64,000 bases of DNA from Siphonodentalium dalli (Eukaryota > Mollusca > Scaphopoda > Gadilida > Siphonodentaliidae). Position 1 is the first letter of the stretch. Each line of letters starts with the position of its first letter. The DNA lies in the NCBI GenBank assembly GCA_032622095.1, contig CP136065.1, positions 53,811,949 to 53,875,948 on the forward strand, given 5' to 3'. A program made the translations under genes and the position numbers. Shown here piece by piece: positions 9,001 to 61,918 of this stretch. Under the pieces are notes generated by a model, which had not been told where the DNA came from, searched no databases, and saw only the letters and a list, made by a program, of their open reading frames with translations.

Positions 9001-12000
9001 GATATTCAAAAACGTATGAACCAGAAACATACATATTGGCCTACATAGTAAAATATCGGCGCAATACCTCACCAAAACCCTAGTAAATATTATAGGAGCA
9101 TAAAATACGAACACAATGGCGCAAATATTAGCTCGATATCTCGAAAATTGGCCGATATATGGCGACTTTTCTACCCGCGTCATCAAATTTCGAGGCATGG
9201 GTGGGGGTCACACCAGAACGTTCCAACTGAACACAGAAATGTCAATAAACCATACTATCGACATTCCAATCAATTCCGAGCGATTCCCTTATTATACTTA
9301 CATATTTTAATATGGAAGTATATTGTTATTCAATTTTTTATTTTTCACTATTATTATTATTTATTATTCTTAATATATTTTGAAACCCTTATATCTCAGA
9401 AAGTTTAAAAGTTAAAGCATTGAAATTTGGTAGGTATATGCACCATGCCAAGATGCATGGTAATGGAGCATTTAGGTTTGTGCCCTAACTTGCTTACCAG
9501 AGTTATGGCCCTTAAACCAAAATTTTGGAAAAAGTTTGTGCGCAGATTTTCTCCTGTAAGAAGTCAAGCAGCTGAATTCGGTTCACGTAATCGTGTTAAC
9601 TAAGGAAAGGGCACGAATCGGGGAAATTTTCACCAAGGTCCGAAAACAATTTGTTGACCCGGGGAGGGGTGCAAAATTTGTCAATTTTTTTCTTGTCACC
9701 GATTCCAACCATTTTTACTGTCGGGTATCTATACGATGTACTGATGCTACTCGTGAAAGAATTTTGTAAATCGGGTGAGAAATTACCAAGTTATAACACA
9801 TCGAAAAATGTACTAATAAAGTCCATGTGTAGAAAGTGCTTGTGTCCCGATCTTCTCCTAGACGAAGCGCAACAGCTGGATTTGCTCTATGTGAGCGTCT
9901 TAAACATAGACAGAAGACCAAACCAGGACATTTTTACAAAGGTCCGCTCAATTTTTCGTGGGCTAAGGGAGGGGCAAAATATGTCAATTTTTTTTTTGTC
10001 GCCGATTTTAACCAAAATGGTTGTGAAGTATCTGTAGGATGTACTAAGTATTATCGTGCGTGAATTTTGTGAATCGGTTGACAAATGTAGAAATGGTGGC
10101 CCTTTCCTTTTTTCAAGTTTACAGGGAAAGCACTATGAATTTATATTTCTTCAACCAATCGTGACGTGTTTAATATCATTCGATGGGGAATTTTTAGCTC
10201 TTTTAAACGATTATTCATTTGCTGCATTATGTCGAATGAGTCCGGAGATATTCAAAAACGTATGAACCAGAAACATACATATTGGCCTACATAGTAAAAT
10301 ATCGGCGCAATACCTCACCAAAACCCTAGTAAATATTATAGGAGCATAAAATACGAACACAATGGCGCAAATATTAGCTCGATATCTCGAAAATTGGCCG
10401 ATATATGGCGACTTTTCTACCCGCGTCATCAAATTTCGAGGCATGGGTGGGGGTCACACCAGAACGTTCCAACTGAACACAGAAATGTCAATAAACCATA
10501 CTATCGACATTCCAATCAATTCCGAGCGATTCCCTTATTATACTTACATATTTTAATATGGAAGTATATTGTTATTCAATTTTTTATTTTTCACTATTAT
10601 TATTATTTATTATTCTTAATATATTTTGAAACCCTTATATCTCAGAAAGTTTAAAAGTTAAAGCATTGAAATTTGGTAGGTATATGCACCATGCCAAGAT
10701 GCATGGTAATGGAGCATTTAGGTTTGTGCCCTAACTTGCTTACCAGAGTTATGGCCCTTAAACCAAAATTTTGGAAAAAGTTTGTGCGCAGATTTTCTCC
10801 TGTAAGAAGTCAAGCAGCTGAATTCGGTTCACGTAATCGTGTTAACTAAGGAAAGGGCACGAATCGGGGAAATTTTCACCAAGGTCCGAAAACAATTTGT
10901 TGACCCGGGGAGGGGTGCAAAATTTGTCAATTTTTTTCTTGTCACCGATTCCAACCATTTTTACTGTCGGGTATCTATACGATGTACTGATGCTACTCGT
11001 GAAAGAATTTTGTAAATCGGGTGAGAAATTACCAAGTTATAACACATCGAAAAATGTACTAATAAAGTCCATGTGTAGAAAGTGCTTGTGTCCCGATCTT
11101 CTCCTAGACGAAGCGCAACAGCTGGATTTGCTCTATGTGAGCGTCTTAAACATAGACAGAAGACCAAACCAGGACATTTTTACAAAGGTCCGCTCAATTT
11201 TTCGTGGGCTAAGGGAGGGGCAAAATATGTCAATTTTTTTTTTGTCGCCGATTTTAACCAAAATGGTTGTGAAGTATCTGTAGGATGTACTAAGTATTAT
11301 CGTGCGTGAATTTTGTGAATCGGTTGACAAATGTAGAAATGGTGGCCCTTTCCTTTTTTCAAGTTTACAGGGAAAGCACTATGAATTTATATTTCTTCAA
11401 CCAATCGTGACGTGTTTAATATCATTCGATGGGGAATTTTTAGCTCTTTTAAACGATTATTCATTTGCTGCATTATGTCGAATGAGTCCGGAGATATTCA
11501 AAAACGTATGAACCAGAAACATACATATTGGCCTACATAGTAAAATATCGGCGCAATACCTCACCAAAACCCTAGTAAATATTATAGGAGCATAAAATAC
11601 GAACACAATGGCGCAAATATTAGCTCGATATCTCGAAAATTGGCCGATATATGGCGACTTTTCTACCCGCGTCATCAAATTTCGAGGCATGGGTGGGGGT
11701 CACACCAGAACGTTCCAACTGAACACAGAAATGTCAATAAACCATACTATCGACATTCCAATCAATTCCGAGCGATTCCCTTATTATACTTACATATTTT
11801 AATATGGAAGTATATTGTTATTCAATTTTTTATTTTTCACTATTATTATTATTTATTATTCTTAATATATTTTGAAACCCTTATATCTCAGAAAGTTTAA
11901 AAGTTAAAGCATTGAAATTTGGTAGGTATATGCACCATGCCAAGATGCATGGTAATGGAGCATTTAGGTTTGTGCCCTAACTTGCTTACCAGAGTTATGG

Positions 12001-40752: not shown

Positions 40753-40758
40753 TTCAGT
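40753..40758. repeat. Target-site duplication (left), ttcagt
   Basis: These six bases directly abut the first base of the palindrome at 40759. They recur exactly at 46442-46447, abutting its last base. Polinton/Maverick integration generates 6-bp duplications. Confidence 0.88.
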
Positions 40759-41935
40759 AGTAGTATATATTGAGCTGTGTCACCCCCAAGCGAGGAAGAG
40801 CCGAAGAGCCAATGTTTACATAACACGTTGCTATGTTGTGTTGTTAAGGGGGGTATTTAAATTTAAAGGTAGACAATGGGTTTAAAGGGACAACAATTGA
40901 ATTTAAATGGATGCTATTGAAATGTATTTAAAGGGAAAGATATAAGAATGAATCGGGTCATTGAATTTAATGAGTGTGTTGAATGGGTTGTAATTGATAG
41001 AGTATACAAGAATGAATCGGATCATTGAAACTGTTTCGAGTGAGATCAGGTCAGTGATTTATCTATAATTGAATGACAGATATATAAGAATTTGTTTTGT
41101 GCGGCTGAATTAGATAGGATCTTGCATGGGATAACAAATGGATGTAATTGATAGAGTATACAATACGGGCATAATTGGAATGATATGGGGAAGCAACCGA
41201 TCAGTAAGTATTAGTCAAATGAACGAGTTTTATATATGTTACTATTTGGCAAGATCAGTCTTCATCAGATGACAGTGGGTACGAAGCGGACGATGACGAA
41301 TGAATACAGCGAAAAAAGAAAAAAAACTCGGGATTCTTTTGAACCCCCAACTATCAATTAATATTAGTTATATTCCATAATCCCTCTGTTGATTCAGTTG
41401 GTTAGGACTCCAAGCAGATATTTCGTCCCAGATATAGCAAGTCGTGGGTTCAAACAGAGTGATAGTAGTCGACAAGTTTGAACATAACCTCTGGGCGCCG
41501 CATATATCACGTGGTTTCCGCCACCAAGGTAGAGTTTATCCATATAGCAGAAGGTGATCGTATATGATCGAAAACGGGTATAAATATTATATAGTATAGG
41601 TTACATATTCGGGTAGATGGTTTGACTGCCTAAGCCCTAGACTCCTCAACCTCAGCCACCAGGGGTGAGAGGTCACATCGCGGTGTGTTATCACTAATGG
41701 AATAGGATATTGGGGTGATAAACGATCGCGTTAACCCTATTGCGTATCGCCTACAATATGAAAGAAAATAGGGGGGGCGTGTACTTGGGTGGAGGTTATG
41801 CGGATATCGCAGATAAGAAGATACCGTTGATATATATTGGTACTATAAAAGGAATATATAACGCTGTTATATTACGAACACCAATATTATATGGAACAAT
41901 GAAGACAAATAAACAGTATAGTGTATCAACATTTG
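40759..41935. other. Left-arm terminal non-coding region of the palindrome
   Basis: About 1.18 kb from the element end to the polyadenylation signals of the minus-strand ATPase gene. It contains short internal direct repeats: 'aagaatgaatcgg' near 40945 and 41012, and 'gtaattgatagagtatacaa' near 40990 and 41144. It also has many 'tttaaa' words (40850-40940), a tRNA-like motif at 41384-41459 and a short acidic open tail at 41255-41302. The same features recur inverted in the right arm (about 45266-46441). In Polintons the terminal region carries replication and integration signals. Which bases do that here is unknown. Confidence 0.6.
41384..41459 (+). other. tRNA-like (A-box/B-box) motif in the left arm
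   Basis: It contains gattcagttggttagg, typical of a tRNA D-arm / A box, and gtcgtgggttcaaac, typical of a B box, about 45 bases apart. The outer 7 bases (ctctgtt / aacagag) pair. The T-stem does not fold, because the 3' pairing strand overlaps the T-loop, so this is not a functional tRNA gene. It is either a tRNA-derived (SINE-like) remnant or a pol III promoter-like element. The mirror copy is at 45742-45817. Confidence 0.4.
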
Positions 41936-41936
41936 C

Positions 41937-41967
41937 TTTATTCGACACCAAGAATAATAGGTTTATT
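41937..41967 (-). terminator. Polyadenylation signals of the left ATPase gene
   Basis: On the minus strand two AATAAA hexamers (41962-41967 and 41937-41942) follow the stop codon by 8 and 33 bases. The close spacing implies a very short 3' UTR, common in compact viral-type elements. Confidence 0.6.
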
Positions 41968-41975
41968 GCAGTTAA

Positions 41976-43401
41976 TCATCGATTGTCATCGTCGTCATCT
42001 TGCTCAGAGTCTTGAGAGGAGTCCATCTGATTATCGTTTTTGTCCTCACTTTTATTTCTCATGTACTCCATCAGGAGGGGTTTATATGTCCTCAAAGAAA
42101 TCCGAACAGCAGGGAGTATATCATAGCTATCATCTAGCATCTTATACACACGATCCATGATCTTGTTATGAGTTTTCCCACCACTAACTTCAAGTAAATT
42201 TCGTATAAATGCAGCGTATATGTTTAAGAAACGCCTTTCATACTCGGGACGTATCTTCACTTTCGATTTTTCTTCAGCCTCGTCTTCCGTCAATCCTTTC
42301 TTCATATAACGTTCAACTAATTCATCTAATTCTGCTTTATTGTCATCTTGGGCCTGTAACCACACCTCTTCGAAATAATCGTTTTCTTTTTCAGTCGGAA
42401 GTTTTAATATTAGTCTGTCCTGGTCCGGAATTAATTCTATTTTATTCGTGTCAGTTTTCTGTTTTTTATTATTCACCCGTGCATTTTCAATTGATTCTCT
42501 TTTCTTCCTATCAGAACACCAATTTTTAATGTGCCTTTGTACATCATGCTGGGTCTCAAATACGACACCACAATCGTCACAGCTTGGCATGATGTTGCCT
42601 TCGCTTTCAGAGTCGTATTCCTGCTGTAACAATAGCCCAGGGTATGTAGTTTCACTGATATTATCTTTCTTTTGATGCGTTATCACATCGACGGGCTCAT
42701 CAACACTACTGTTATTTGACAATATGCTTTCTTGTTTTATACTAGTCTTTGTCAGCACATTACTACGAAGTCGCAAATTTTCTGGAGTATTCGTTTTTAA
42801 GTCAACTACGAGATAACCAAATGGTTGATTGGTAGCTTCATTGAAATGGGACATAAAGTGTTGTGTTTTCTCTGGATACATTTGACGAGCTAGAGTCATT
42901 ACCTGCATTTTATCTATAGGGTTGTTGAATAGAATCAAGTAGTGGCAATTTCTCCGTTGGGTAGGGTCCTTGTTATAGTAGAGAGATTGATTAATCGCAA
43001 CCACTGATATACCCAAATGGTGACTGCCTTCCGTGAATAATTCAGTAACCCGCGAATCCTTGGATGCCGTAGACATAAGGTCATCAAGTACAATCAGACA
43101 TTTTTTTCCAGAATGAATGAGGGTGTCCAAGTTAGTCGGAAGACCTTGTATAAACTGGACAGATGGCGCGACTGTGTCCTTGATTTCATCGTATAATGGC
43201 TGCCAGTACTTATAGAACCAAATTATTTTCTCGGGTGAAGGCTGTATACTCGCTGAACAATTTTGAAGTATACTTTTAAGCAAGTGTGTTTTGCCGCAAG
43301 AAGTGGGTCCCGAAATCCACGCGGTAAATGGATGCCTGAATTTGAAGTCATCCTGTCGCGCGCCACCACTGCTTTCTCTATAAGGTTGTTGTTGTTGTTG
43401 T

Positions 43402-43434
<33 letters not shown>

Positions 43435-43541
43435 AGTTGTTGTTGTTGGTGTTGTTGTCGAGAGTGTTTGAACTTTATATGCCGTTTTAAACTGTCTGGC
43501 CATACATATTCAATTGAACATGTTTCACACTGATGCTTCAT
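41976..43541 (-). CDS. Zinc-finger / A32-like (FtsK-HerA) DNA-packaging ATPase, left copy
   Basis: The predicted protein of 521 residues matches the Polinton/adintovirus genome-packaging ATPase, which in viruses pumps DNA into the capsid. From the N-terminus it has a C2H2 finger (Cys5, Cys8, His21, His26), a Gln-rich linker (about 29-52), then the P-loop ATPase. Walker A GPTSCGKT lies near 78-85 and Walker B LIVLDD near 149-154, followed by the family phrases WFYKYWQPLYDE, FTEGSHH, AINQ and DPTQRRNCHYL. A second C2HC finger lies near 321-342, then a basic stretch and an uncharacterised helical, acidic C-terminus ending in Asp repeats. I start at the ATG at 43541. The frame extends upstream to a GTG at 43562 but has no earlier ATG. 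No frameshift or stop interrupts it. Core Polinton ATPases are about 200-250 residues, so the fingers and C-terminal domain are extensions. It has one Gln fewer than the right copy, and Leu where the right copy has Gln (in MTLARQ). Confidence 0.88.
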
Positions 43542-43586
43542 CCTTGACCGATCTGAGGGCACTGAGTCTTTTCCAGATAAAAGAGA

Positions 43587-43611
43587 GCCTTTTATGACAG
43601 GAAGAACAATA
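43587..43611. other. Asymmetric spacer at the palindrome centre
   Basis: Only 25 bases separate the two arms. The spacer supplies an ATG (43594) in frame with the right-arm gene only. The flanking arms begin agaga / tctct, a short pairing that could have primed a snap-back. There is no room for a promoter in the spacer, so each gene's 5' region is the reverse complement of the other's. Confidence 0.85.
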
Positions 43612-43765
43612 TCTCTTTTATCTGGAAAAGACTCAGTGCCCTCAGATCGGTCAAGGATGAAGCATCAGTGTGAAACATGTTCAATTGAATATGTATGGCC
43701 AGACAGTTTAAAACGGCATATAAAGTTCAAACACTCTCGACAACAACACCAACAACAACAACTAC

Positions 43766-43799
<34 letters not shown>

Positions 43800-45225
43800 A
43801 CAACAACAACAACAACCTTATAGAGAAAGCAGTGGTGGCGCGCGACAGGATGACTTCAAATTCAGGCATCCATTTACCGCGTGGATTTCGGGACCCACTT
43901 CTTGCGGCAAAACACACTTGCTTAAAAGTATACTTCAAAATTGTTCAGCGAGTATACAGCCTTCACCCGAGAAAATAATTTGGTTCTATAAGTACTGGCA
44001 GCCATTATACGATGAAATCAAGGACACAGTCGCGCCATCTGTCCAGTTTATACAAGGTCTTCCGACTAACTTGGACACCCTCATTCATTCTGGAAAAAAA
44101 TGTCTGATTGTACTTGATGACCTTATGTCTACGGCATCCAAGGATTCGCGGGTTACTGAATTATTCACGGAAGGCAGTCACCATTTGGGTATATCAGTGG
44201 TTGCGATTAATCAATCTCTCTACTATAACAAGGACCCTACCCAACGGAGAAATTGCCACTACTTGATTCTATTCAACAACCCTATAGATAAAATGCAGGT
44301 AATGACTCAAGCTCGTCAAATGTATCCAGAGAAAACACAACACTTTATGTCCCATTTCAATGAAGCTACCAATCAACCATTTGGTTATCTCGTAGTTGAC
44401 TTAAAAACGAATACTCCAGAAAATTTGCGACTTCGTAGTAATGTGCTGACAAAGACTAGTATAAAACAAGAAAGCATATTGTCAAATAACAGTAGTGTTG
44501 ATGAGCCCGTCGATGTGATAACGCATCAAAAGAAAGATAATATCAGTGAAACTACATACCCTGGGCTATTGTTACAGCAGGAATACGACTCTGAAAGCGA
44601 AGGCAACATCATGCCAAGCTGTGACGATTGTGGTGTCGTATTTGAGACCCAGCATGATGTACAAAGGCACATTAAAAATTGGTGTTCTGATAGGAAGAAA
44701 AGAGAATCAATTGAAAATGCACGGGTGAATAATAAAAAACAGAAAACTGACACGAATAAAATAGAATTAATTCCGGACCAGGACAGACTAATATTAAAAC
44801 TTCCGACTGAAAAAGAAAACGATTATTTCGAAGAGGTGTGGTTACAGGCCCAAGATGACAATAAAGCAGAATTAGATGAATTAGTTGAACGTTATATGAA
44901 GAAAGGATTGACGGAAGACGAGGCTGAAGAAAAATCGAAAGTGAAGATACGTCCCGAGTATGAAAGGCGTTTCTTAAACATATACGCTGCATTTATACGA
45001 AATTTACTTGAAGTTAGTGGTGGGAAAACTCATAACAAGATCATGGATCGTGTGTATAAGATGCTAGATGATAGCTATGATATACTCCCTGCTGTTCGGA
45101 TTTCTTTGAGGACATATAAACCCCTCCTGATGGAGTACATGAGAAATAAAAGTGAGGACAAAAACGATAATCAGATGGACTCCTCTCAAGACTCTGAGCA
45201 AGATGACGACGATGACACTCGATGA
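43594..45225 (+). CDS. Zinc-finger / A32-like (FtsK-HerA) DNA-packaging ATPase, right copy
   Basis: This is the mirror copy of the minus-strand gene, intact, with 543 residues if translation starts at the spacer ATG (43594) and 522 from the ATG at 43657. The latter is shared with the left copy and has A at -3, so I consider it the likelier start. Domains (numbered from 43657): C2H2 finger 5-26, Gln-rich 29-53, Walker A 79-86, Walker B 150-155, C2HC finger 322-343, helical C-terminus with an acidic tail. Differences from the left copy: one extra Gln, Gln for Leu (CAA at 44308-44310) and Thr for Asn next to the last residue. The preservation of two long open frames suggests recent origin, selection or arm-to-arm gene conversion. 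In the family the enzyme hydrolyses ATP to drive DNA into virions. With no capsid gene present, any action here would be in trans or nil. Confidence 0.88.
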
Positions 45226-45233
45226 TTAACTGC

Positions 45234-45264
45234 AATAAACCTATTATTCTTGGTGTCGAATAAA
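45234..45264 (+). terminator. Polyadenylation signals of the right ATPase gene
   Basis: AATAAA occurs at 45234-45239 and 45259-45264, starting 9 and 34 bases after the stop codon, mirroring the left arm. Confidence 0.6.
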
Positions 45265-45265
45265 G

Positions 45266-46441
45266 CAAATGTTGATACACTATACTGTTTATTTGTCTTC
45301 ATTGTTCCATATAATATTGGTGTTCGTAATATAACAGCGTTATATATTCCTTTTATAGTACCAATATATATCAACGGTATCTTCTTATCTGCGATATCCG
45401 CATAACCTCCACCCAAGTACACGCCCCCCCTATTTTCTTTCATATTGTAGGCGATACGCAATAGGGTTAACGCGATCGTTTATCACCCCAATATCCTATT
45501 CCATTAGTGATAACACACCGCGATGTGACCTCTCACCCCTGGTGGCTGAGGTTGAGGAGTCTAGGGCTTAGGCAGTCAAACCATCTACCCGAATATGTAA
45601 CCTATACTATATAATATTTATACCCGTTTTCGATCATATACGATCACCTTCTGCTATATGGATAAACTCTACCTTGGTGGCGGAAACCACGTGATATATG
45701 CGGCGCCCAGAGGTTATGTTCAAACTTGTCGACTACTATCACTCTGTTTGAACCCACGACTTGCTATATCTGGGACGAAATATCTGCTTGGAGTCCTAAC
45801 CAACTGAATCAACAGAGGGATTATGGAATATAACTAATATTAATTGATAGTTGGGGGTTCAAAAGAATCCCGAGTTTTTTTTCTTTTTTCGCTGTATTCA
45901 TTCGTCATCGTCCGCTTCGTACCCACTGTCATCTGATGAAGACTGATCTTGCCAAATAGTAACATATATAAAACTCGTTCATTTGACTAATACTTACTGA
46001 TCGGTTGCTTCCCCATATCATTCCAATTATGCCCGTATTGTATACTCTATCAATTACATCCATTTGTTATCCCATGCAAGATCCTATCTAATTCAGCCGC
46101 ACAAAACAAATTCTTATATATCTGTCATTCAATTATAGATAAATCACTGACCTGATCTCACTCGAAACAGTTTCAATGATCCGATTCATTCTTGTATACT
46201 CTATCAATTACAACCCATTCAACACACTCATTAAATTCAATGACCGATTCATTCTTATATCTTTCCCTTTAAATACATTTCAATAGCATCCATTTAAATT
46301 CAATTGTTGTCCCTTTAAACCCATTGTCTACCTTTAAATTTAAATACCCCCCTTAACAACACAACATAGCAACGTGTTATGTAAACATTGGCTCTTCGGC
46401 TCTTCCTCGCTTGGGGGTGACACAGCTCAATATATACTACT
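45266..46441. other. Right-arm terminal non-coding region of the palindrome
   Basis: Reverse complement of 40759-41935, with one base fewer near 46245. It includes the mirrored short direct repeats and the tRNA-like motif. Confidence 0.6.
45742..45817 (-). other. tRNA-like motif in the right arm
   Basis: Inverted copy of 41384-41459, with the same A-box and B-box words and the same inability to form a proper T-stem. Confidence 0.4.
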
Positions 46442-46447
46442 TTCAGT
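46442..46447. repeat. Target-site duplication (right), ttcagt
   Basis: Exact copy of 40753-40758, abutting the last base of the palindrome. Confidence 0.88.
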
Positions 46448-54069: not shown

Positions 54070-55052
54070 GAAGATCTGTCTGTCTGTGTGTCTGTGTGTT
54101 CGCGATGAACTCGAAAACGGCCGAGCCGATTTCGATGAAACTTGTTATGTGGGGGTATTTTCGGTCGGGGGGTGGCATGGGCCTATTAATTTGTCCGTGC
54201 GACGTGACCTTGACCTTGAAATCGGGTCATTTCAAGGTCAAACGCCCGAATATCACGGGATTTCGATGAAACTTGGTATGTGGGGATACCTTCGACCAGA
54301 GAGTGGCATAAACCTATTAATTTTCCCGTGCGACGTGACCTTGACCTTGAAATCGGGTCATTTCAAGGTCAAACGCCCGAATATCACGGGATTTCGATTA
54401 AACTTGGTATGTGGGGGTACCTTCGACCAGAGAGTGGCATAAACCTATTAATTTGCCCGTGCGACATGACCTTGACCTTGAAATCGAGTCATTTCAAGGT
54501 CAAACGCCCGAATATCACGGGATTTCGAAGAAACTTGGTATGTGGGGGTACCTTCGACCAGAGAGTGGCATAAACCTATTAATTTGCCCGTTCGACGTGA
54601 CCTTGACCTTGAAATCGGGTCATTTCAAGGTCAGACGCCCGAATATCACGGGATTTCGACGAAACTTGGTATGTGGGGGGTACTTTCGTATGGGGAGTCT
54701 CATAAGCCTATTCGTTTGCCCGTGCAACGTGACCTTGACCTTGAAATCGGGTCAATTCAAGGTCAAATCGGGAATTTTGATGGGATTTCGACGAAATTTG
54801 ATACGTGGGGTTACTTTTGTCCACTGAGTGTTTTGGACGGGTCGAGTCGTGACCCCGACCTGACCTTGACCTTCAAAATTATCAATTCAAGGTCAAATCG
54901 GGTAAAACCGGATGGATTTCGACGGGCACATTTGTCGGGTACTTTTGTCCGGGCAGTGTTTTGGACTGGTCAAATCTTGACACCACTTGACCTTGACCTT
55001 CAAAATGGACAATTCAAGGTCAAAGCCCGGACGAAGTCAGGTCACCTTCTAG
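54067..55052 (+). mobile_element. Non-autonomous Helitron-like (pearl/HINE-type) element with 131-bp core repeats
   Basis: 5' part: a tct-gtctgtctg-type tetranucleotide tract, then 'gatgaactcgaaaacggccg'. Core: about five to six tandem copies of a 131-bp unit containing 'gaccttgaccttgaaatcgg' and 'aaacttggtatgtgggg', with gacgtg/gacatg marks at 54201, 54332 and 54463. Later copies diverge progressively. 3' end: gcccggacgaagtcagg, which in the other copies (gcccggacgaagtcgggt) forms a short hairpin, then 'tcaccttCTAG'. A 3' hairpin about 7-10 bases before CTRR is the canonical Helitron terminus. No Rep/helicase frame exists. The 199- and 138-codon open frames simply read through the repeat and are not genes. 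Tandem cores with tetranucleotide tails resemble the bivalve 'pearl' elements. Confidence 0.65.
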
Positions 55053-55080
55053 TATATATATATATATATATATATATATC
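55053..55080. repeat. (TA)n microsatellite at the 3' edge
   Basis: It directly follows CTAG at 55049-55052. Confidence 0.85.
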
Positions 55081-60489: not shown

Positions 60490-60540
60490 GCAAACAATAC
60501 AGACAGACAGACAGACTGAAGTTCCAAAATATATAATAGA
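60490..60540 (-). mobile_element. 5'-terminal fragment of a Helitron-like element
   Basis: On the minus strand: TCTATTATATATTTTGG, then 'aacttcagtctgtctgtctg'. It begins directly after the CTAG of the next element (60541-60544). The core is missing, so this is a truncated or very short copy. Confidence 0.55.
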
Positions 60541-61277
60541 CTAGAAGGTGACCCGACTTCGTCCGGGCTTTGACCTTGAATTGTCCATTTTGAAGGTCAA
60601 GGTCAAGTGGGGTCACGATTTGACCAGTCCAAAACACTGCCCGGACAAAAGTACCCGACAAACGTGCCTATTGAAATCCATCCGGTTTTACCAAATTTGA
60701 CCTTGAATTGATCATTTTGAAGGTCAGGGTCAGGTCGACTCGACCCGTCCAAAACACTCAGTTGACAAAAGTACCCCCATGTAACAAATTTCGTCGAAAT
60801 CCCATCAAAATTGGCGATTTGACCTTGAATTGACCCGATTTCAAGGTCAAGGTCACGTCGCACGGGCAAACGAATATGCTTATGAGACTCCCCATACGAA
60901 TGTAGCCCCACATACCAAGTTTCATCGAAATCCCGTGATATTCGAGCGTTTGACCTTGAAATGACCCGATTTCAAGGTCAAGGTCACGTCGCACGGGCAA
61001 ATTAATAGGTTTATGCCACTCTCCGACCGAAGATACCACCACATACCAAGTTTCATCGAAATCCCGTGATATTCGAGCGTTTGACCTTGAAATTACCCGA
61101 TTTCAAGGTCAAGGTCACGTCGCACGGGCAAATTAATAGGCCTATGCCAGTTCCTGGCCGAAAATACACCCACATACCAAGTTTCATCTAAATCGGTTCG
61201 GCCGTTTTCGAGTCCATCGCGAACACACAGACACACAGACAGACACACAGACAGATCTTCCAAAAATATATAATAGA
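60541..61277 (-). mobile_element. Helitron-like (pearl/HINE-type) element, copy 1 of a head-to-tail run
   Basis: On the minus strand it starts TCTATTATATATTTTTGG (ending 61277), carries a tetranucleotide tract, then diverged 131-bp core units with the 'gaccttgaccttgaaatcgg' phrase. It ends with the hairpin gcccggacgaagtcgggt, then 'caccttCTAG' at 60541. It is in the same family as 54067-55052. Confidence 0.65.
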
Positions 61278-61918
61278 CTAGAAGGTGACCCGACTTCGTC
61301 CGGGCTTTGACCTTGAATTGTCCATTTTGAAGGTCAAGGACAAGTGGGTTCACGATTTGACCAGTCCAAAACACTGCCCGGACAAAAGTACCCGACAAAC
61401 GTGCCCGTCGAAATCCATCCGGTTTTACCCGATTTGACCTTGAATTGATCATTTTGAAGGTCAAGGTCAGGTCGGGGTCACGACTCGACCCGTCCAATAC
61501 ACTCAGTGGACAAAAGTAACCCTACGTATCAAATATCGTCGAAATCACACCACAATTCGCGATTTGACCTTGAATTGACCCGATTTCAAGGTCAAGGTCA
61601 TGTCGCACGGGCAAATGAATAGGCCTATGCCACTTCCCGGCCGAAAATACCCCCACATACCAAGTTTCATCGAAACCCCGTGATATTCGGGCGTTTGACC
61701 TTGAAATTACCAGATTTCAAGGTCAAGGTCACGTCGCACGGGCAAATTAATAGGCCCATGTCACTCCCTGGCCGAAAATACACCCACTTACCAAGTTTCA
61801 TCGAAATCGGCTAGGCCGATTTCGAGTCCATCGATTACAGACAGACACACATACACAGACACACACACACACACACACACACACCCTCACATACATATCT
61901 TCCAAAATATATAATAGA
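61278..61918 (-). mobile_element. Helitron-like element, copy 2 of the run
   Basis: Same family and orientation as copy 1. Its 3' CTAG (61278-61281) abuts the 5' TC of copy 1. An (AC)n tract at about 61849-61884 lies in its 5' part. The core has about four diverged units. Confidence 0.65.

Follow-up and report, generated by a model that had tools for sequence, protein, structure and literature searches.

That Polintons synthesise themselves by protein-primed replication has been deduced mainly from their gene content. Among protein-primed linear replicons, palindromes are known as symmetric defective adenovirus genomes and as inverted-dimer derivatives of yeast linear killer plasmids; unlike the palindrome analysed here, these are laboratory-selected molecules that are not integrated. 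According to PMC8097293, vertebrate Mavericks measure 12.7-24.6 kb and have (AGT)2//(ACT)2 ends, a 6-bp duplication, TIRs of 46-1447 bp and modules of which most point to the centre, and the repeated end motifs of protein-primed replicons permit jumping-back. The element described here lies in a window of 64,000 nucleotides (the whole stretch of DNA that was analysed) and resembles the Polintons/Mavericks (including adintoviruses) in its repeated-trinucleotide ends and 6-bp TSD, in its A32/FtsK-HerA-type packaging ATPase and in terminal sequence that it has in common with PolB-bearing elements. It differs from them in being 5.7 kb long, in having an inverted repeat that makes up the whole element, in genes that point outward, and in the absence of genes for PolB, integrase, protease and capsid.

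The snapback subgenomes of AAV, which are made from one parent end and which the authors propose to be of help to the virus (PMC8235507), have the same snapback configuration, but they belong to a parvovirus with hairpin replication and occur in particles, whereas the element in the window belongs to an inherited dispersed family. Foldback inversions likewise involve hairpin or fold-back priming, but are described as chromosome rearrangements, with neither transposon ends nor target duplications (PMC10622511, PMC7467729). No palindromic Polinton family was found among the titles and abstract openings listed in searches of an open-licence library, which leaves its absence from print unproven.

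Architecture of the element and its ATPase

A 2.8-kb palindrome that is bounded exactly by a 6-bp duplication is far beyond chance. It stands at the coordinates and with the Polinton-type ends of the original prediction (Table 1): the termini read AGTAGT...ACTACT and both are directly abutted by TTCAGT. The arms differ from each other by two substitutions (41983, 42892), a 1-bp indel (40955) and a 3-bp CAA unit (43414), and each consists of approximately 1.2 kb of non-coding sequence, counted from the terminus, followed by the ATPase gene, which reads from the centre outwards. The mirror copy of the terminal ~307 bp ends at 46441.

Table 1. Features of the palindromic element (positions in the window)
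Feature	Positions	Strand	Basis
Left TSD, TTCAGT	40753..40758	.	sequence comparison
Left arm (2828 bp) from terminus to centre, beginning with (AGT)2	40759..43586	+	
Terminal ~307 bp, 93-95% common with TIRs of two 14.1-kb PolB-bearing elements	40759..41065	+	
Left-arm zinc-finger/A32-type packaging ATPase, 521 aa, open	41976..43541	-	
Asymmetric centre, 25 bp, GCCTTTTATGACAGGAAGAACAATA, also in other copies	43587..43611	.	
Right arm, 2830 bp, mirror of left arm, ends with (ACT)2	43612..46441	-	
Right-arm ATPase, 522 aa, open, Gln at mostly-Leu position	43657..45225	+	
Right TSD, TTCAGT	46442..46447	.	sequence comparison

The two ATPase frames are the only ones that reach 150 aa within 40759-46441, in agreement with the prediction that the ATPase is the sole recognisable gene, and neither a PolB nor an integrase was found there. 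An autonomous Polinton has a protein-primed PolB, a retroviral-type integrase, and TIRs that are shorter than the element and enclose a unique interior; here both genes are lacking and the arms meet at the 25-bp centre. The whole has the form of a snap-back genome, a palindrome with an asymmetric loop. The stretch at 41390-41460 and its mirror contain what we take, by eye, to be A- and B-box-like motifs of tRNA-derived sequence; ARAGORN detected no tRNA in this stretch and a search of Rfam gave no match.

The ATPase frames were counted from the ATG that aligns to the start of P0002. C2H2-finger matches occur at two places of the protein, which in Pfam also matches Adeno_IVa2 and Pox_A32. The predicted structure of the right-arm protein (mean pLDDT 72.5, pTM 0.43, core blocks near 90) most resembled the packaging NTPase B204 of STIV2 within the PDB and, among viral models, appeared similar to many A32-like packaging ATPases and to adenovirus IVa2. 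The prediction had spoken of an intact ATPase in each arm: both frames are indeed open, but since the right arm has Gln in the column of residue 239, where at least 90% of a 22-sequence alignment has Leu, 'intact' is to be read as open and not as proven functional. The relatives of the ATPase (120 listed of 226) include predicted proteins of Mizuhopecten, Pecten, Solemya, Mytilus, Pinctada, Mya and Ruditapes, with one filed under the bacterium Sedimenticola; they point to a bivalve or some other mollusc as the probable host. Relatives of the element itself were absent outside the host genome in a search of genome contigs and viral contigs.

The dispersed family and its common centre

Other copies with different flanks and 6-bp duplications of their own, for which the original prediction had recommended a search, were recovered as a dispersed family with the same ends. 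The terminal 601 bp of the element has at least 41 matches in the host assembly (2.23 Gb, nine contigs; 40 of 148 candidates scored), many of them in convergent pairs that are 3-9 kb apart, and 14 convergent pairs and 10 other ends were retrieved. An exact 6-bp duplication was present in all 17 two-ended loci (the window copy WIN, L021-L034, L037 and L043), located after one extra ACT in L022 and at the outer of two right ends in L037, and in six of seven further loci, C4:214.23 being without; in C3:252.24 and C1:93.16 the duplication is exact only once altered end repeats are allowed for. L031 and L032 have flanks in common, the sole flank match among 15 loci compared, and represent one insertion that was later duplicated, and C5:130.15 and C5:132.35 are identical in the eight flanking bases printed per side. 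After merging of common flanks, the exact duplications (23 of 24 loci) correspond to 21 distinct insertions. A search with the end pattern gave 24 forward and 26 reverse sites, and zero in the control. Part of one arm is missing in many copies, and an insertion of ~5.5 kb lies in one arm of the 9-kb copy L034. Close ATPase neighbours, picked by eye among the matches listed, were divergent in 14 of 14 pairs (gaps of 406-1009 bp in 13 pairs and of 3934 bp in one). We have very little doubt that the element is a member of a mobile palindromic Polinton-derived family.

The centres of the copies are informative about how the family moves. L023 (6066 bp, arms of ~3.03 kb) has a minute hairpin centre, and in the window-type copies ~450 bp around an L023-like centre have been lost, with 3 bp of microhomology at the junction. 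The 25-bp centre was found with both of its sides in seven loci: WIN, L026 (with two changed bases beside it), L027, L028, L038, C6:161.83 and C1:204.22; in L021 the junction was matched on the right side only, and the loops of C5:130.15/132.35, C3:252.24 and C4:214.23 are smaller or changed. The duplications are known for six of the seven loci and are all different (the left end of L038 lies outside the piece compared). The same centre at seven loci with six different duplications implies that the palindrome itself moves, and thus the predicted movement as a palindromic unit is borne out by the many sites together with the common centre.

Arm homogeneity, candidate helpers and proposed mode of replication

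In a tree of 38 arms, both arms of every two-armed copy were sisters, save in L031/L032, where left grouped with left and right with right first, as expected of a later duplication (25 and 26 left-right differences of 2021). The divergence between the arms of one copy was 0.07-2.0%, and it remained below that to the nearest other retrieved copy in 15 of 15 two-armed copies (L029 is near the limit, 2.00 vs 2.12); the median divergence between arms of different copies was 3.41% (646 comparisons). The differences look uniformly distributed along the arms in seven of ten copies tested and are uneven in L033, L027 and L030 (KS p 0.005-0.04, 6-11 differences each). In L037 a stretch of 305 bp (9256-9560), located between two copies of the element end, matches the left host flank in reverse complement (98%), and an internal 167-bp stretch of L022 is a copy of its own right flank (98%), which indicates that fold-back or other template copying also occurs in the chromosome.

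Judged from the codon changes, the ATPase appears to be under constraint from copy to copy and to vary neutrally between the two arms of a copy. The arm-versus-arm differences in 12 copies were nonsynonymous in 49 of 60 cases (pN/pS 1.09), five of them involving stops, whereas the differences between copies that are common to both arms gave a pN/pS of 0.39 (26 nonsynonymous, 16 synonymous, p 0.005; five pairs, dominated by L022-L023, with multi-change codons left out) and nine disjoint copy pairs gave a ratio of 0.59 (96 nonsynonymous, 40 synonymous, p 0.007). Two pairs go against the trend, L031-L037 (0 synonymous, 5 nonsynonymous) and WIN-L028 (0/1), and the ratio was 0.54 in copies with a broken frame vs 0.35 in copies with an open frame. 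These signs of purifying selection are more readily reconciled with a satellite whose gene works than with debris, and suggest that selection can keep a packaging ATPase in an element without any other recognisable gene; an unseen parent, rather than the palindromes, could have been under this selection.

Two elements of 14.1 kb (C1:49595702 and C5:244018443) have the same ends as the family, TIRs of ~411-419 bp and the duplications TGGAGA and AGTAGT; the latter is identical to the end repeat and therefore ambiguous. The comparison used their end pieces (all but 5 kb of the middle of the first element and a minor part of the second), in which frames of zinc-finger and polymerase type lie at one end and frames of PC4 and NADAR type at the opposite end; the C1 element has a different ATPase of 219 aa. 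Outside the common terminal ~307 bp, these pieces match the window arm in short scattered stretches, and their termini differ from some family members no more than those members differ among themselves. The polymerase frames of L045 remained unnamed by Pfam, PHROGs, NCBIfam and PDB sequences, with weak endonuclease/Vsr-like matches only. Relatives of the long frame of the 14.1-kb elements carry a precomputed PF03175 (DNA_pol_B_2) and the name DNA-directed DNA polymerase; the PolB label also relies on motifs that we presume to recognise. Related polymerase frames elsewhere in the genome extend up to 1588 aa without a stop. The 14.1-kb PolB-bearing elements are likely the helpers of the family, and are presumably autonomous. 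As parents of the window arm they were rejected on account of their ends, and the full-length Polinton envisaged by the original prediction, with a terminal 2.8 kb that matches the arm, was not found among the loci listed. Among the 81 ATPase and 77 PolB coordinates listed (95 of 4458 ATPase and 79 of 977 PolB candidates scored) no parent with an ATPase arm was recovered, the nearest distance between an ATPase and a PolB being 39 kb, and the one single ATPase locus examined as a full-length parent, L052, is another long inverted-repeat element.

On balance we favour the reading that the element is a non-autonomous palindromic Polinton satellite that replicates as a linear molecule by snap-back, with borrowed polymerase and integrase. 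The PolB-bearing elements would supply the protein-primed polymerase and the integrase in trans; a single strand of the linear satellite DNA would fold to a near full-length hairpin, in which, at every cycle, one arm would serve as template for copying or repairing the other; such copying or mismatch repair would make both arms alike, and the extrachromosomal palindrome would then integrate into a chromosome. The first palindrome of the family may have formed when a strand snapped back at a short inverted repeat and primed its own copying, an origin suggested by the junction of L074 (see below), and the ATPase probably aids the packaging or spread of the small palindromic genomes. The sister arms, the neutral-looking arm differences and the common centres would together be explained by hairpin replication; the ends of C4:214.23 and L074, which have no 6-bp duplication, form a counter-point. 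Both suggestions made earlier, a genome of defective-interfering type that borrows integrase and a mobile unit in its own right, are consistent with the findings and need not be alternatives, 'defective interfering' being unproven. Dispersed palindromes in which both arms are renewed jointly would be a trace, left in the genome, of protein-primed Polinton replication, and the family would be a natural, inherited counterpart of snap-back subgenomes that offers material for tests: copies of graded age, a common centre as marker, and neutral versus selected sites.

A tentative alternative is a multipartite Polinton system of inherited palindromic segments, each of which would replicate through a hairpin while functions are shared among them, selection on the packaging ATPase acting on the palindromes themselves; its segments might, equally tentatively, be the window ATPase element, the ATPase element L049-L051, L074 with an integrase and perhaps a capsid gene, and perhaps PolB ends. 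It is rather unlikely that the arms were equalised after insertion, by gene conversion or fold-back repair within the chromosome. This would account less easily than hairpin replication for the sister arms and the neutral-looking differences, and not at all for the common centres; the copied host flanks of L037 and L022, the uneven spread of differences, a possible product of conversion tracts, in three of the ten copies tested and the long private stems under arm pairs, e.g. in WIN and L024, argue for it, whereas the uniform-looking differences in the other seven copies, the 1-2% arm divergence held by several copies, the near-equal left-right differences that the L031/L032 duplicates keep with their left-left and right-right pairing, and the neutral look of the arm differences next to the constrained look of the both-arm differences argue against it. 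Because copying from chromosomal templates was seen in L037 and L022, we give the full mechanism of the satellite no more than moderate confidence.

That every palindrome was made anew, by snap-back from a long Polinton with an ATPase near one end, is improbable: L074, of another family, has such a junction, and a related ATPase is fused to an integrase in the Mya gene models P0043 and P0061, but the exact 25-bp centre in seven loci with six different known duplications needs the copying of an existing palindrome, and no such parent is present among the ATPase and PolB matches listed. The absence of PolB and integrase from the element would also suit an ordinary long-TIR DNA transposon that captured an ATPase and is not mobilised by Polintons, an explanation made very improbable by the Maverick-type ends, the 6-bp TSD and the terminal 307 bp in common with PolB-bearing elements. 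Palindromes are, finally, a classic artefact of assembly, arising from a missed adapter or a fold-back read; this is scarcely credible here, as the host flanks differ, exact duplications occur at nearly all loci, the arms differ from each other and the palindrome recurs at many loci.

Other palindromes and inverted pairs in the genome

An element of 7905 bp at C2:175988209-175996113 (L049-L051) has 3795-bp arms, between which the pieces compared show two mismatches, a centre of 315 bp, the duplication AGTGTA, ends AGAAGA...TCTTCT and two open ATPases of 564 aa; it has no DNA match with the window element, and its end has at least 41 matches in the genome (40 of 1757 candidates scored). In L074 (C3:293380151-293387907, 7757 bp), which is unrelated in DNA to the window family and has no matching 6-bp duplication at its ends, the arms are identical over 3177 bp and have one mismatch in 578 bp. 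Each arm contains a frame with a TBP domain, one for an integrase (matching rve, and chromo below the cut-off), one of 136 aa and part of another gene, which we tentatively take to encode a Polinton capsid-type protein and of which the sole named relative among ten is 'F54H12.2-like' of Mytilus; a 387-aa frame was unnamed by Pfam and PDB sequences. The centre junction of L074 lies at TGAACTT, and the inverted copy AAGTTCA is found ~258 bp further in the colinear L075/L076, which come from other inverted integrase pairs and are not its proven parent; this 7-bp inverted microhomology suggests a strand that folded back and copied itself. In L052/L053, one central ATPase lies between inverted arms of at least 3 kb that carry PC4-type genes.

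Pairs of inverted PolB-like frames ~5 kb apart, possibly palindromes of PolB ends, were seen at C2:112175606/112180452 and C4:258048823/258053773. Among 150 integrase matches listed, forty have one and the same score (132.3 bits) and include four inverted pairs with spacings of 4.5-10 kb, and ~95 others lie at 130.8-131.5 bits, the majority with a frame of 377 aa; such homogeneous scores probably reflect recent expansions. Elsewhere in the window, a satellite unit of 1246 bp is repeated 19 times from position 1 to ~23.7 kb, with identical copies in a 300-bp register, and arrays of a 131-bp tandem repeat are present in inverted orientation, ~6 kb apart, at 54077-55057 and 60536-61855.
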